From Tychonema litorale BBK16 (GTDB lineage Bacteria > Cyanobacteriota > Cyanobacteriia > Cyanobacteriales > Microcoleaceae), in NCBI RefSeq assembly GCF_021648855.1, contig NZ_JAKJHX010000131.1:1-14375 (forward strand): 14,375 nt of DNA, given 5' to 3'. Of this stretch, positions 5,083 to 12,338 are shown piece after piece (the first letter of the stretch is position 1; each line of letters begins with the position of its first letter). The notes under the pieces were generated by a model. It searched no databases. It saw nothing but the letters and a program-made list of their open reading frames with translations, and was not told where the DNA came from. The position numbers and the translations under genes are program-made.

Positions 5083-6348
5083 ATGATAATTGACGATTCT
5101 AAACCCTTACCGGATGCGGCAAATGTTGCCCGCTATGCTTACCAAGCTTCTTTGGAATTAGCGGGGACAAAAAGTACAGATCGCGCTGCTGCTTTGCAGG
5201 TGATGGCGAGTGCGCTGAAACGCCGACAAAATGACATTTTAGAAGCAAATACTCTGGATCTAGAAGCGAGTCGGGACATGGCGATTCCCGAATTGATTGT
5301 CGATTGGCTAAAGCTGACGCCCGATCGCATCAAGACAACTGTGCAAATTCTTCAGCGATTGGGAGAAATGCCAGATCCGATCGGGCGAGTGATCAATGCT
5401 TCTTATCAGGTCGATCGATGTCAAGTGTACTGTCAATCGCTGCCACTAGGGGCGATCGCGCTAATTTACGAGGCGTTTCCAGAGTTAGGGGCGATCGCGG
5501 CTGGTTTGAGCCTTAAAAGTGCCAACAGCTTGATTCTCAAAGGCGGTAGCGAAAGTTGGCAAACCAATGCAGTCATCGGGGAAGCTTTGCAGTCGGCAAT
5601 CGATGAGGTAGGTTTGCCGTCAGGATGTTTGCAGGTATTGCCACCCGATGGAGGCGTTTCGATCCGGGATTTAGTTACTCAAGACCAATATCTCAACTTA
5701 ATTATTCCCTACGGCAGACCTAGTTTGGTGCAGCAGGTGGTGCGACAATGTACAGCGCCTGTGTTGCGATCGGCTATGGGCAATTGTTACCTGTATTGGT
5801 CGCCGACTGGTAGTTTGGAGATGGCGAGGTGGATGATTTTGGACAGTCATCAAAGTGTGCCAGATCCGGTAAATGCGATCGAGAAAGTGCTCATTGATCG
5901 CAACCAAAAGCCTTCTTCCCTAGTCAGACTATGGAACAGTTTAAAAGAAAAAGGCTTTCAGATTAGGGGAGACGCAGAGCTCGTTGCAGATTTCCCAGAA
6001 TTGAAGTTAGCCGAAGCATCTGAATGGACTCAACCGTATTTGAACAAAACCATAGCGTTTAAAGTTGTCGATAGTTTAGAAAGTGCGATCGGCTGGATCA
6101 ACCGCTACAGTAGCGGGCACGCTGACAGCATCGCCACAGAATCTTACCTAGAAAGTCGCCAATTTGCTCTAGATGTCAACAGTGCATCTACTTTTATCAA
6201 TGCTTCGCCTCGGTTTTGGCGCTATCAAAATCGAGGAGATGCGATATTTTTGGGAATGTCAAATCAGAAAGGTTATCGTCGGGGATTGATTGGTTTGGAT
6301 ACGCTGACTACAATTAAACAAATAGTTCAGGGTAACGGACAATTTTAA
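5083..6348 (+). CDS. ProA-like protein lacking the catalytic cysteine
   Basis: A 421-residue protein, the usual length of glutamate-5-semialdehyde dehydrogenase (gamma-glutamyl phosphate reductase, ProA), the NADPH enzyme of proline synthesis in the aldehyde-dehydrogenase superfamily. Recognisable landmarks are LKSANSLILKGGSE (144-157), LNLIIP (204-209), MGNCYLY (232-238), INRYSSGHADSIATE (339-353), NASPRF (373-378) and the C-terminal IKQIVQGNGQ. Key deviations: canonical RPGVCNAxE, which holds the nucleophilic Cys, reads VPDPVNAIE here, putting Val263 in the Cys position; canonical IPRG reads IPYG (208-211); the late GAEIGIST block reads AIFLGMSN. The fold is clearly ProA-like, but proline-synthetic activity is doubtful. 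A separate canonical ProA would be expected elsewhere in the genome. ATG at 5083 follows the previous stop by 4 bases. Confidence 0.85.
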   Translation: MIIDDSKPLPDAANVARYAYQASLELAGTKSTDRAAALQVMASALKRRQNDILEANTLDLEASRDMAIPELIVDWLKLTPDRIKTTVQILQRLGEMPDPIGRVINASYQVDRCQVYCQSLPLGAIALIYEAFPELGAIAAGLSLKSANSLILKGGSESWQTNAVIGEALQSAIDEVGLPSGCLQVLPPDGGVSIRDLVTQDQYLNLIIPYGRPSLVQQVVRQCTAPVLRSAMGNCYLYWSPTGSLEMARWMILDSHQSVPDPVNAIEKVLIDRNQKPSSLVRLWNSLKEKGFQIRGDAELVADFPELKLAEASEWTQPYLNKTIAFKVVDSLESAIGWINRYSSGHADSIATESYLESRQFALDVNSASTFINASPRFWRYQNRGDAIFLGMSNQKGYRRGLIGLDTLTTIKQIVQGNGQF

Positions 6349-8951: not shown

Positions 8952-9377
8952 GTTTATATTGGTTTTAAAGATGCTGCTATTCTATCTCAAGAAAATCAAC
9001 TGGTTTTTATAAGCACAAAAAGTTAAAACTCTTGTCAATTAAGGTTTACACGGCACAACCTGGCAAAATGATAAAAATATGTGGTTCACCGATTGAATTA
9101 GACAACGCATTTATTAGGCTTTCAGCCAGAGTTGAATCATTAAGAATGATGTCATTTATTCGATCGTAATAATCCTAATAGAACTTATGTTCAAAAACCG
9201 AGTTTATACCAAAATTTTTTGGTCTTGTTAGGAGACATCTACAAATAAACCGGGTTGAGCGGGCAAATGTGCGTAAGTGTTAGAGTTCGAGAAATGGGGT
9301 TTGCGATCGCACTAATTCACTGCAATGACAGAATTCCGCGAGATTTATCGCACTTTTTTAGGTTGGAGACGCTACAT
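8952..9377. other. Intergenic region between methyltransferase and cyclase genes
   Basis: A 426-bp stretch between divergent genes that must hold both promoters. I see no convincing promoter pair. A nested inverted repeat is present at 9196-9256. A 33-codon ATG frame at 9069-9170 has no supporting features. The last ~120 bases are open as an upstream extension of the cyclase gene from TTG at 9255 or ATG at 9294. Confidence 0.6.
9196..9256. repeat. Nested inverted repeat
   Basis: The outer arms AACCGAGTTTAT (9196-9207) and ATAAACCGGGTT (9245-9256) are complementary apart from two mismatches. Just inside the left arm, ACCAAAA (9208-9214) and TTTTGGT (9217-9223) form a perfect palindrome. The AAACCGGGTT-type arm resembles short dispersed palindromes common in cyanobacterial intergenes. 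Regulatory role unknown. Confidence 0.45.
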
Positions 9378-10424
9378 ATGCCGCACATTCACTATCTGCC
9401 GGACGATCGCACGATCGAGGTAGACGATAACGATATAATTCTGGAAGCTTCCTTGCGGGTTGGGATTCCCCACACCCATATCTGCGGCGGTAGTGCCCGG
9501 TGTTCTACTTGTCGCGTATTAATCGTCGAAGGTTTAGAATTTTGCTCTCCTCGCACTTCCCTAGAAGCAGAATTAGCGAAAAAATTACAGTTAGAGCCGG
9601 AAATTCGGCTAGCTTGTCAGACACAGGTGGCTGGCGGGAAGGTGATTTTGCGGAGATTGGCGATCGATTCTGAAGACTGGGAATCATTTAACGACCAAAT
9701 GGCGGGAAATTCAGTTTCTCCCTCGGTGGGAAAAGAGAAAAAAATTGCCATTTTGTTCGCAGATATCCGAGGATTCACAACTTTTGCGGAATCACTACTA
9801 CCATATGACGTGATTTATGTTTTAAACCGCTATTTCCAAAAAATGGGTTATGCGATCAACCGCAACGGTGGAATGATCAATAACTATATGGGTGACGGTT
9901 TTATGGCTTTGTTTGGGTTGGAAGATTCAGACAGGGCTGCGGAAGAGGCGGTGAGAGCGGGGATACAGATGCTGGAGGAGCTAGAAAAACTCAATCCTTA
10001 TTTTGAAAATTTATACCACCATCGCTTGCGAATTGGGATCGGCATCCACTACGGCCTTGTCGTGGTGGGGAATTTGGGTGCGACCAAAAGCCAGACGGTG
10101 ACGGCGATTGGGGATGCGGTTAATTTAGCCAGCCGGATCGAATCTGCGAATAAGCAAGTGGGGACAAATCTCTTGATTTCGGAGGAAACCTATGCGGAGG
10201 TAAAGGAGTTGGCGATCGTAAATCGGTGCGTATTAGTCGAAATTCCAGGGAAAAGCGGGGAATATCCGTTGTATGAAATCGTTGGGATGCCTGCGCTACC
10301 GATGGAAATTGCGATCGAGGAAATTGCCCCTGTCAAACAAGGTTCTATGTTTCAAGCTTTGCTCAAGAGATTGATGGGTTTGTTTGCTGGGGCGCGAAAT
10401 TGGATGAGAAAAATATTTTTGTAA
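9378..10424 (+). CDS. [2Fe-2S] ferredoxin domain fused to class III nucleotide cyclase
   Basis: Encodes 348 residues from ATG at 9378, chosen because GGAG lies 9 bases upstream and the ferredoxin fold begins at once; TTG 9255 and ATG 9294 are in-frame alternatives. Residues 1-95 are a plant-type ferredoxin domain with ligands Cys36, Cys42, Cys45 (CGGSARCSTC) and Cys80 (LACQ). After a linker, residues 121-305 are a class III adenylate/guanylate cyclase domain: FADIRGFT with metal Asp129, MGDGFMALFG with metal Asp173, TAIGDAVNLASRIE with Thr242 and the transition-state pair Asn249 and Arg253. The lysine that usually reads the base four residues before Asp173 is Asn169, so substrate and activity are uncertain. 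The C-terminal 40 residues are amphipathic or hydrophobic and may touch the membrane. Role inferred: production of cAMP (or cGMP) set by the redox state of the cluster. Confidence 0.88.
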   Translation: MPHIHYLPDDRTIEVDDNDIILEASLRVGIPHTHICGGSARCSTCRVLIVEGLEFCSPRTSLEAELAKKLQLEPEIRLACQTQVAGGKVILRRLAIDSEDWESFNDQMAGNSVSPSVGKEKKIAILFADIRGFTTFAESLLPYDVIYVLNRYFQKMGYAINRNGGMINNYMGDGFMALFGLEDSDRAAEEAVRAGIQMLEELEKLNPYFENLYHHRLRIGIGIHYGLVVVGNLGATKSQTVTAIGDAVNLASRIESANKQVGTNLLISEETYAEVKELAIVNRCVLVEIPGKSGEYPLYEIVGMPALPMEIAIEEIAPVKQGSMFQALLKRLMGLFAGARNWMRKIFL

Positions 10425-10881: not shown

Positions 10882-11036
10882 TCCTAGCCTGAGTCAGAGG
10901 ATACATGGGCGATCGCTCAGAGTAGCCAGACAGACATAAACTTTCCAAACTGAATGAGGTCAAGCAGTCGCGAACTAAGTGATTGCTTGATTTTGTTTTT
11001 GGTGGTCTGAAAGCTTTAATTGAGAAGTTCTTGAGT

Positions 11037-11489
11037 ATGTTGTCAAATCCGAATTCAGAGTACGAATCGTTATTACAAAGAGCGATCGCGATCGCCACAA
11101 AAGCTCATGAGGGGCAGGTTGATAAGGCAGGTAATCCTTATATCGAGCATCCGCTATTTGTGATGGAAAATGTCAATTCTATCGAGCAAAAAATTGTAGC
11201 GGTTCTACACGATGCGGTGGAGGATTCTGAACTGACATTTGACGAACTCAGAAGTGAAGGTTTTTCGGAAGTTATCGTTTTGGCGATCGTAGCGATTACC
11301 AAAATAGAAGGAGAGGCTTATGCAGCTTATTTGGAGCGTGTGATTGCCAACGCGATCGCCTTGCGAGTCAAAATTGCTGATGTCAGTCACAACCTCGATA
11401 TTAGTCGCATTGCCAATCCGACAGAGGCAGATTTTCAACGCATTGCCAAATATAAAAAAGTTCTCAGTCAGTTGCGTGCCGCCTTATAA
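11037..11489 (+). CDS. Single-domain SpoT/MESH1-like HD hydrolase
   Basis: Encodes 150 residues from ATG at 11037; a TTG-started extension to 10983 adds 18 residues without conserved features. The sequence follows the HD domain of RelA/SpoT enzymes: ATKAHEGQVDKAGNPYIEHP (20-39), VAVLHDAVEDS (55-65), ITK (87-89) and VKIADVSHNL (111-120). Probable metal ligands are His38, His58-Asp59 and Asp115. No synthetase or TGS/ACT domain is present, so this is a small stand-alone protein like MESH1-type (p)ppGpp hydrolases, which degrade the stringent-response alarmone. Activity on (p)ppGpp is inferred from the family; other HD phosphohydrolase substrates are possible. There is no strong Shine-Dalgarno. 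It follows the RRM gene by about 155 bases on the same strand. Confidence 0.78.
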   Translation: MLSNPNSEYESLLQRAIAIATKAHEGQVDKAGNPYIEHPLFVMENVNSIEQKIVAVLHDAVEDSELTFDELRSEGFSEVIVLAIVAITKIEGEAYAAYLERVIANAIALRVKIADVSHNLDISRIANPTEADFQRIAKYKKVLSQLRAAL

Positions 11490-11565: not shown

Positions 11566-11946
11566 ATGAATGAGGAGCAACTTGATGAGGTTAAGCAGAT
11601 TGCCAGAAGATATAGAAATTTTCAATGTGTTTCCTGTTCTCAAGCTATCCAAAGTTATTTGACTAAACAGGAAATCAACGGTAAGATCATAAAAATCAGC
11701 ACAGTCCCCGACAGGCTGCCATTTTCAATTATTACCAATCCAGTGGGGAGCGATCGCCAAATTTCCACAAATGGTTTTCATCAAGGTGTGGTTGTTGGGA
11801 TGTCTACAGAATTAGGAAAACTTGAAACAGTGTTTGACAACCTATATCCTAATGGAATCGCTAAAGATGATTGGCTCAATAGTTTTGGTGGGCCTCTTGT
11901 AGAAGATTTTAATGGAGAGTTTGTAGTGACAGAAACCGAGTTTTAA
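11566..11946 (+). CDS. Papain-fold toxin-like protein (Tox-PL-2 type)
   Basis: A 126-residue protein resembling the papain-fold toxin domains found at the C-termini of polymorphic toxins, here as a free-standing protein. A Cys-rich helix start FQCVSCSQAIQ (19-29) offers the nucleophile (Cys24, or Cys21), GFHQGVVV (70-77) offers the catalytic His72, and VFDNLYPNGI (89-98) offers an acidic third residue (Asp91). The order Cys-His-Asp fits a papain fold, with protease, deamidase or acyltransferase chemistry all possible. There is no secretion signal and no long delivery domain. A GAGGAG starting 7 bases past the first ATG lies within the coding region, so it does not define this start; no upstream ribosome site is clear. 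The next gene, 44 bases downstream, is a likely immunity partner. The family call is from memory of motif pattern. Confidence 0.68.
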   Translation: MNEEQLDEVKQIARRYRNFQCVSCSQAIQSYLTKQEINGKIIKISTVPDRLPFSIITNPVGSDRQISTNGFHQGVVVGMSTELGKLETVFDNLYPNGIAKDDWLNSFGGPLVEDFNGEFVVTETEF

Positions 11947-11990: not shown

Positions 11991-12338
11991 ATGGATAATC
12001 TCTCCGATATTCTCAACAAAATCAAGAATAAACCTTCAGTGTACTTGGGTAAACCGTCAATTAGTTGTCTTCAGGCTTTTTTGTCGGGATATACTGTGGC
12101 ACAGTACCAGCTTGGCTTACCTTTACAACAGGAAAATCCTCTAGATGGATTTCAAGATTGGATACAGAAAAAATTTAATATCGACTCATCTCAATCATGG
12201 GCGAATATAATTCTATTCTTTTCTCAAGATGAGAGAGATGCACTCGATATTTTTTTTCAGCTATTTGAAGAATTTTGTCAAAGTAAGGCGCGTCATGCAC
12301 CTCCTAAAACTGCAACTCACTCTTTCAGTGGCAACTAA
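11991..12338 (+). CDS. Probable immunity partner of the papain-fold protein
   Basis: A 115-residue soluble protein without recognised catalytic residues. It reads MDNLSDILNKIKNKPSVYLG, then SISCLQAFLSGY, then a mid-block with FQDWIQKKFNI and SWANIILFFSQDERDALDIF, and ends in a polar tail. The N-terminal pattern IKNKPSVYLGKPSI and the helix-rich W-containing middle are of a type I associate with small immunity-like proteins next to toxins, but I cannot name the family. The pairing with the upstream gene, 44 bases away on the same strand, and the acidic middle region support an inhibitor role. The polar tail HAPPKTATHSFSGN looks less ordered and might be a degraded end. The ATG at 11991 lacks a clear Shine-Dalgarno. 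Confidence 0.6.
   Translation: MDNLSDILNKIKNKPSVYLGKPSISCLQAFLSGYTVAQYQLGLPLQQENPLDGFQDWIQKKFNIDSSQSWANIILFFSQDERDALDIFFQLFEEFCQSKARHAPPKTATHSFSGN

Follow-up and report, generated by a model that had tools for sequence, protein, structure and literature searches.

A ferredoxin–cyclase fusion of Tychonema litorale BBK16 from a widespread lineage of putative class III nucleotidyl cyclases without the adenine-reading lysine

According to a 2016 paper (PMC4821796), 30 alpha- and betaproteobacterial cyclases carry a ferredoxin domain between a six-helix anchor, for which two haems are predicted, and the cyclase domain. One cyclase with a haem anchor and a [2Fe-2S] cluster, S. meliloti CyaC, is reported to respond to the redox state of quinones, with oxidation as the activating change (PMC10463352). 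The residue at the lysine position of class III cyclases matters for base choice, since a single exchange there switches Cya2 from GTP to ATP use (PMC5995499), CyaG and Rv1625c lost their AC activity on a K to E exchange (PMC4215837), and mutating EaPycC R142 jointly with two other residues did away with cCMP (PMC11224242).

Here we describe a ferredoxin–cyclase fusion, P0001, encoded in the window, a 14,375-nucleotide stretch of the T. litorale BBK16 genome. An earlier note on this DNA had described a four-Cys [2Fe-2S] domain (C36, C42, C45, C80) joined to a class III cyclase with D129, D173, N249 and R253 in place, and translation bears out every one of these residues (Table 1). Relatives start at the ATG at 9378 as well, which makes use of a longer frame from a TTG at 9255 improbable. 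Pfam Fer2 matches residues 8–84 at 43.7 bits (cut-off 21), which together with the four Cys predicts a [2Fe-2S] ferredoxin; the top NCBIfam match of this domain is the ISC ferredoxin fdx_isc (E 8e-14, 51.7 bits, below the cut-off of 132.1). Residues 120–280 match Pfam Guanylate_cyc at 83 bits (cut-off 21.9), and the two metal Asp and the Asn/Arg pair are those of a class III nucleotidyl cyclase. In the AF2 model (mean pLDDT 89.7), residues 116–305 have a predicted class III cyclase fold, with residue 169 within the strand 165–171, and because structure matches span these residues only, the ferredoxin fold rests on sequence and model. A hydropathy scan of P0001 gave no hydrophobic segment above threshold.

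Table 1. Coordinates in the window (P0001) and in other loci discussed in the text
Feature	Position	Strand	Basis or remark
P0001 CDS, ferredoxin–cyclase fusion	9378..10424	+	348 aa plus stop (9378-10421 without stop); relatives share start
[2Fe-2S] ferredoxin domain, residues 1-96	9378..9665	+	Pfam Fer2 8-84
Codons of Cys36, Cys42, Cys45 (C-x5-C-x2-C)	9483..9512	+	Translation, family alignment
Codon of Cys80, fourth ligand	9615..9617	+	Translation, family alignment
Class III cyclase domain, residues 118-304	9729..10289	+	
Codon of metal Asp129	9762..9764	+	Translation, structure and family alignments
Codon of Asn169, adenine-reading lysine position	9882..9884	+	Structure, family and same-genome alignments
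Codon of metal Asp173	9894..9896	+	Translation, structure and family alignments
Codon of Thr242, partner base-site residue	10101..10103	+	Structure and family alignments
Codons of Asn249 to Arg253, transition-state pair	10122..10136	+	Translation, family alignment
Cationic C-terminal helix, residues 324-347, proposed membrane tether	10347..10418	+	AF2 helix, charge, hydrophobic moment (moment without control)
ThsA-like gene, L108	L108:4471-5952		Ferredoxin–cyclase at 6001
ThsA-like gene, L109	L109:4558-5952		Ferredoxin–cyclase at 6001
ThsA-like gene, L113	L113:4471-5952		Ferredoxin–cyclase at 6001
Loci of the metal-less sister clade	L030-L036, L106, L131, L140-L159, L165, L168, L169, L172, L180, L187, L189		Some are mutual copies

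Taken as one joint reading, we judge the case a little better than even that P0001 is a functional, membrane-held, redox-gated class III nucleotidyl cyclase that takes another base or is relaxed among NTPs. From its sequence the protein is very probably folded and catalytically competent, and, by analogy, its cluster probably gates the cyclase activity. The N-terminal [2Fe-2S] cluster would accept or donate an electron and the change would be passed on to the cyclase homodimer, switching turnover, while the cationic C-terminal helix would keep the protein at the membrane near quinones or photosynthetic electron carriers. In a less certain step, adenine would not be strictly read without the lysine, leaving another base or a relaxed choice among NTPs. 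The alternatives weighed below overlap single steps of this reading, and the confidence placed in each does not add up to a whole.

Aligned with Cya2, CyaB and OaPAC, the cyclase domain is free of gaps around residue 169, which stands opposite E in Cya2 and opposite K in the engineered Cya2 variant 6fht, in CyaB and in OaPAC. In this register Asn169 occupies the lysine position with Thr242 as its partner, as the earlier note had proposed, and we reject a register shift that would hide a lysine. N169 is neither the Lys found at the adenine-reading position in the class III adenylate cyclase residue code nor the Glu of Cya2-type guanylyl cyclases. The BBK16 genome (5.27 Mb, 226 contigs) holds 29 class III domains, and the 27 with both metal Asp carry K in 25 cases, N in P0001 and E in one at the lysine position; the substitution in P0001 is real, and exceptional within its own genome. 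Three of the genome's class III domains have aberrant residues (C10:25141-25674, C1:38147-38695 and C1:38942-39442): two have lost both metal Asp, and one, which keeps both, carries Glu where the lysine would be and is without the Asn/Arg pair.

Of 197 relatives in named genomes, the best 80 by similarity to P0001 were taken into the family sample, together with relatives that two genome searches found in the window's phylum and class and stretches cut from the genomes of these. Merging 22 rows identical over residues 31–280 reduced 142 sequences to 120 distinct ones, from which the five same-genus loci L022-L026 are excluded; alignment A2 used 51 of its 58 listed rows. Among the best 80 of 197, the closest records are an Oscillatoriales bin (L070, 90%) and Tychonema bourrellyi (L051, 88%), the closest with a species name, and phage records gave partial matches only, none of nine covering 80%. 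Homologues that failed to conserve the Cys residues would have told against the earlier note's reading; all four are present in 119 of the 120 sequences, a count that is partly circular in that the ORF was chosen by four-Cys spacing for 61 loci (no locus failed), and the exception, L069, is truncated by a contig end and begins within the domain. Of the 120, 91 retain both metal Asp (hereafter catalytic members), and all 91 have the Asn/Arg pair. At residue 169, whose conservation the earlier note had suggested examining, 79 of the 91 lack lysine (N 61, K 12, V 11, D 3, T 2, S 1, I 1), in a sample where lysine-less members may be over-represented because the best 80 of 197 were ranked by similarity to P0001. 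Position 242 is T in 85, A in 4 and S in 2 of the same members.

Trees were built from the cyclase domain only, leaving out columns 169 and 242 and taking other class III domains of the BBK16 genome as outgroup. The quick tree has 80 rows (28 near-copies among the 91 catalytic rows dropped, 29 rows without both metal Asp excluded, three plasmid-record rows added, 14 of the 28 other genome domains as outgroup) and the careful tree 73 (L191, L190, L111, L107 and three outgroup rows dropped). Both contain one change between lysine and non-lysine. In the careful tree, in which one long outgroup branch joins the family, the 52 lysine-less rows form one clade (bootstrap/SH-aLRT 100/98) found in all 200 bootstrap trees; given the best-80-of-197 sampling, a lysine-bearing member may yet prove to lie inside it. 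Lysine-bearing ferredoxin–cyclases of Spirochaetes and Leptospirales, Zetaproteobacteria and Methylococcaceae branch outside, as does the lysine-bearing L191 of Rhizobium etli in the quick tree alone, on a long branch, and since the outgroup lies outside too, lysine is the older state. Among sampled members on these outgroup-rooted trees, lysine was lost once, at the base of a clade that, going by record titles, takes in about 13 phyla. In the quick tree these titles are Cyanobacteria, Chloroflexi, Actinomycetota, Betaproteobacteria (and Rhizobium gallicum), Desulfobacterota/Deltaproteobacteria, KSB1, Dadabacteria, Acidobacteria (Chloracidobacterium), Myxococcota (Polyangium), Planctomycetes (Gemmataceae), Bipolaricaulota, Gemmatimonadetes and Bacteroidota (Hymenobacter); phylum names placed before genus names are those we take to apply, and many records are metagenome bins, so that single phylum labels may be wrong. 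When 11 lysine rows are set against 55 lysine-less ones at the thresholds used, consistent differences fall only in columns 128, 148, 195 and 213, besides 168–169; little of the cyclase domain changed along with the lysine. Judged by these alignments and trees, P0001 is a member of an old, widespread lysine-less lineage in which the core catalytic residues are kept.

A search with one metal-less member as query across 388 genomes of the window's class found 55 ferredoxin–cyclase places in 53 genomes. Both metal Asp are absent in 29 of the 55 and kept in 26, two genomes holding one of each; residue 169 in the 26 metal-keeping places is N 15, V 10, I 1 and K 0. A single branch separates the 29 distinct metal-less sequences from the rest (SH-aLRT 100, from a quick tree without bootstrap), and they carry N 19, S 6, A 2, G 1 and H 1 at position 169, with the four Cys intact and the cationic tail mostly kept. 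In seven genes of one genus from this cyanobacterial sister clade, median dN/dS is 0.031 for the ferredoxin and 0.068 for the cyclase domain, and a model of one member, of lower confidence than that of P0001 (pLDDT 80.2), whose input alignment also contained catalytic members, has the same strands and helices except for a short helix after the first metal position. What seems to be under selection there is a cluster-bearing protein with a cyclase fold that needs no metals; with the metal Asp lost, the cluster may serve a purpose for which no product is required, a point against the redox-gated reading of P0001. The clade suggests a cluster role separable from catalysis.

This sister clade bears on whether P0001 is itself decaying, the lysine loss being a first step towards catalytically dead ferredoxin–cyclases. 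The clade is lysine-less as well, so that lysine loss there accompanied the loss of catalysis, but all 79 lysine-less catalytic members have intact metal Asp and an intact Asn/Arg pair, the metal-less sequences are confined to their single branch, and in 19 Microcoleus-group genes median dN/dS is 0.075 for the cyclase, 0.089 for the ferredoxin and 0.37 for the tail. From these rates the P0001 gene is under strong purifying selection, in a pattern that looks like a working protein. Decay is accordingly a very remote alternative, and the 'partly degenerate' cyclase that the earlier note had allowed for is rejected on residue counts, tree and dN/dS, the lysine-less state of the sister clade notwithstanding. 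By the same sequence comparisons, the substitution in P0001 is real, conserved and not degenerate.

That P0001 is not a strict ATP enzyme is an evenly balanced judgement, strict and non-strict use of ATP being about equally probable. The variable position 169 (N, V, I, D, T, S), with Thr242 mostly kept, fits relaxed or altered base reading and is compatible with the changed substrate preference that the earlier note had offered as one option, though Asn169 could pair with adenine, guanine or uracil. A single strict hydrogen-bonding code is hard to square with the Val or Ile found in 12 catalytic members. Cya2 is the first PDB hit to P0001 by sequence. An ordinary redox-gated adenylate cyclase, in which the Asn169 amide reads the adenine edge and the product is cAMP, would suit the retained Thr242, the few columns that separate lysine from lysine-less rows, and a genome with 13 cNMP_binding matches, in which cyclic-nucleotide receptors are probably present. 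Rv1900c, an active adenylyl cyclase with Asn at a substrate position, speaks for it as well. The 12 members with Val or Ile, side chains unable to hydrogen-bond, among the 79 catalytic lysine-less ones, and the loss of AC activity of CyaG and Rv1625c on K to E (PMC4215837) weigh against this alternative, which we consider possible but doubtful.

We regard as very unlikely a pyrimidine cyclase acting like Pycsar PycC. PADLOC PycC profiles match P0001 at E 4.4e-29, but they also match the lysine-bearing relative L117 (E 1.1e-30) and so do not separate substrates. EaPycC R142 lies four residues before the metal D146, as 169 lies before 173 in P0001 (PMC11224242), and three of the 91 catalytic members carry Asp-Ala in place of Asn-Thr, both of which would suit a pyrimidine enzyme. 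Phe127 of P0001 sits at the place of EaPycC F100 and AnPycC F60 and is not decisive, because ordinary cyclases of the BBK16 genome also have Phe there. No Pycsar effector family of PADLOC was detected in the four next downstream neighbours, none of the upstream neighbours is effector-like by Pfam, and no receptor was seen adjoining P0001; Pycsar membership is rejected for lack of an effector. The lysine-less clade and its relatives provide a set of natural variants (K, N, V, D with Ala) in which base choice by class III cyclases could be examined.

The redox part of this reading draws on the domains to which relatives join the ferredoxin–cyclase core. By Pfam, an NAD_binding_1 reductase domain is fused to it in L117, L124, L129 and L130, a Rieske domain in L190 and the Cys-rich DUF2769 in L118, L119, L123 and L127. 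Stretches with four to six hydrophobic segments are joined to it in L102, L104, L105, L111 and L191; the membrane reading of L102, L104 and L105 rests on the hydropathy scan, which over-calls, as one L191 segment falls inside the cyclase domain, while DUF4079 in L111 scores under the Pfam cut-off (29.8 of 31.4 bits) and L191 gave no match to a Pfam anchor family. In L070, L112, L114, L116 and L128 the upstream frames resemble untranslated DNA and were ignored. Most of the best 80 of 197 relatives have no electron-transfer or membrane extension. The Rhizobium gallicum plasmid protein (L190:2899-4380) combines ferredoxin, lysine-less cyclase (Asn) and C-terminal Rieske domain in a single chain, and in a Leptospiraceae bin (L122:5998-7635) a haem peroxidase domain (Pfam, E 8.5e-36) is fused to the ferredoxin–cyclase, possibly giving a peroxide-linked cyclase.

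Redox gating is likely because relatives fuse the core to electron modules and the distant relative CyaC is redox-regulated; these two lines lend indirect support to the redox-gated half of the earlier note's proposal, whose degenerate half falls. Gating by the cluster alone is an extrapolation, since the CyaC response is attributed to haems, which P0001 lacks. Alternatively, the cluster could be structural or carry electrons for another partner without gating the cyclase, as the sister clade that keeps the cluster Cys without metal Asp might suggest; we hold this improbable, since among catalytic members the core is fused repeatedly to modules of electron transfer. Cyanobacterial members have no multi-helix anchor and finish with a short cationic stretch: net charge of their last 24 residues is at least +3 in 41 of the 48 that are catalytic and in 22 of the 29 that are not, against 7 of 38 others (five longer non-cyanobacterial members left out). 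The simplest reading of the cationic C-terminal helix is perhaps a peripheral membrane tether. If the core works as we infer, it is one transferable module plugged into different electron donors by different bacteria. More tentatively still, the lysine-less lineage of about 13 phyla may comprise redox sensors that make a non-cAMP nucleotide (cGMP, cUMP, cCMP or a mix), in cyanobacteria reading photosynthetic or respiratory electron flow at the membrane, with the sister lineage a cluster-bearing non-catalytic scaffold. For cyanobacteria, no established pathway is known to us that links the redox state of electron transport to a cyclic nucleotide. The word ferredoxin is absent from a 2014 review of cyanobacterial second messengers (PMC4284465) and from PMC1183210, and a literature search whose scope took in few subscription papers found nothing on a lysine-less or cyanobacterial ferredoxin–cyclase.

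The window neighbours of P0001 recur in six of seven Microcoleus-group loci compared, and as immediate neighbours in none of 12 loci compared outside this group. Same-strand neighbours within 250 bases in 80 loci (the best 80 of 197 relatives) formed no cluster larger than five, and the search for a conserved operon partner in these loci found none, which tells against the redox-gated reading. Promoter-like and terminator-like sites were not above chance. Downstream of the cyclase, the window encodes a small HD protein resembling a RelA/SpoT start (10983-11489; TIGR00691 at 48.5 bits, far under its cut-off, and HD_4 just under its own), a papain-fold Tox-PL-2 protein (11566-11946; PF15643, E 6.2e-26) and, after it, a 115-residue protein without Pfam match (11991-12338); the last two recur as a pair behind the cyclase in Microcoleus sp. 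LEGE 07076 (L058). A ThsA-like SIR2-STALD gene precedes the ferredoxin–cyclase in three Polyangium genomes, its end lying about 50 bases upstream (Table 1); the L108 copy matches its PADLOC profile at E 2.5e-135, the L109 and L113 copies are 88-90% identical, and no TIR gene was found among four other scanned L108 neighbours. The protein is possibly an effector fed by the ferredoxin–cyclase.

Compared with known systems, Pycsar PycC shares with P0001 the class III fold and base-reading residues unlike those of adenylyl cyclases, and differs in its partner, a cyclic-pyrimidine receptor such as PycTM or PycTIR, which was not found near P0001. PycC is not known to carry a ferredoxin. OaPAC and Spirulina platensis CyaC (1wc1) also share the class III fold, and OaPAC has Thr as partner residue like P0001 but Lys at the base position. 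Spirulina CyaC carries Lys/Thr, and neither enzyme is known to have a ferredoxin. The Cya2 guanylyl cyclase of Synechocystis (2w01) differs in its Glu/Gly base pair (PMC4215837), against Asn/Thr in P0001, and in a CHASE2 sensor (PMC5995499) where P0001 has a ferredoxin. S. meliloti CyaC resembles P0001 in a [2Fe-2S] ferredoxin directly before a class III cyclase, as do the ferredoxin adenylyl cyclases with a haem anchor (class IIIb cluster 1, PMC4821796). P0001 has this ferredoxin plus cyclase core, begins with the ferredoxin and thus lacks the six-helix di-haem anchor, with a cationic C-terminal helix instead of a multi-helix anchor. The core of a Rhizobium etli protein of the haem-anchored architecture aligns with P0001 residues 4–308 at 37% identity, with K at the base position where P0001 has Asn.
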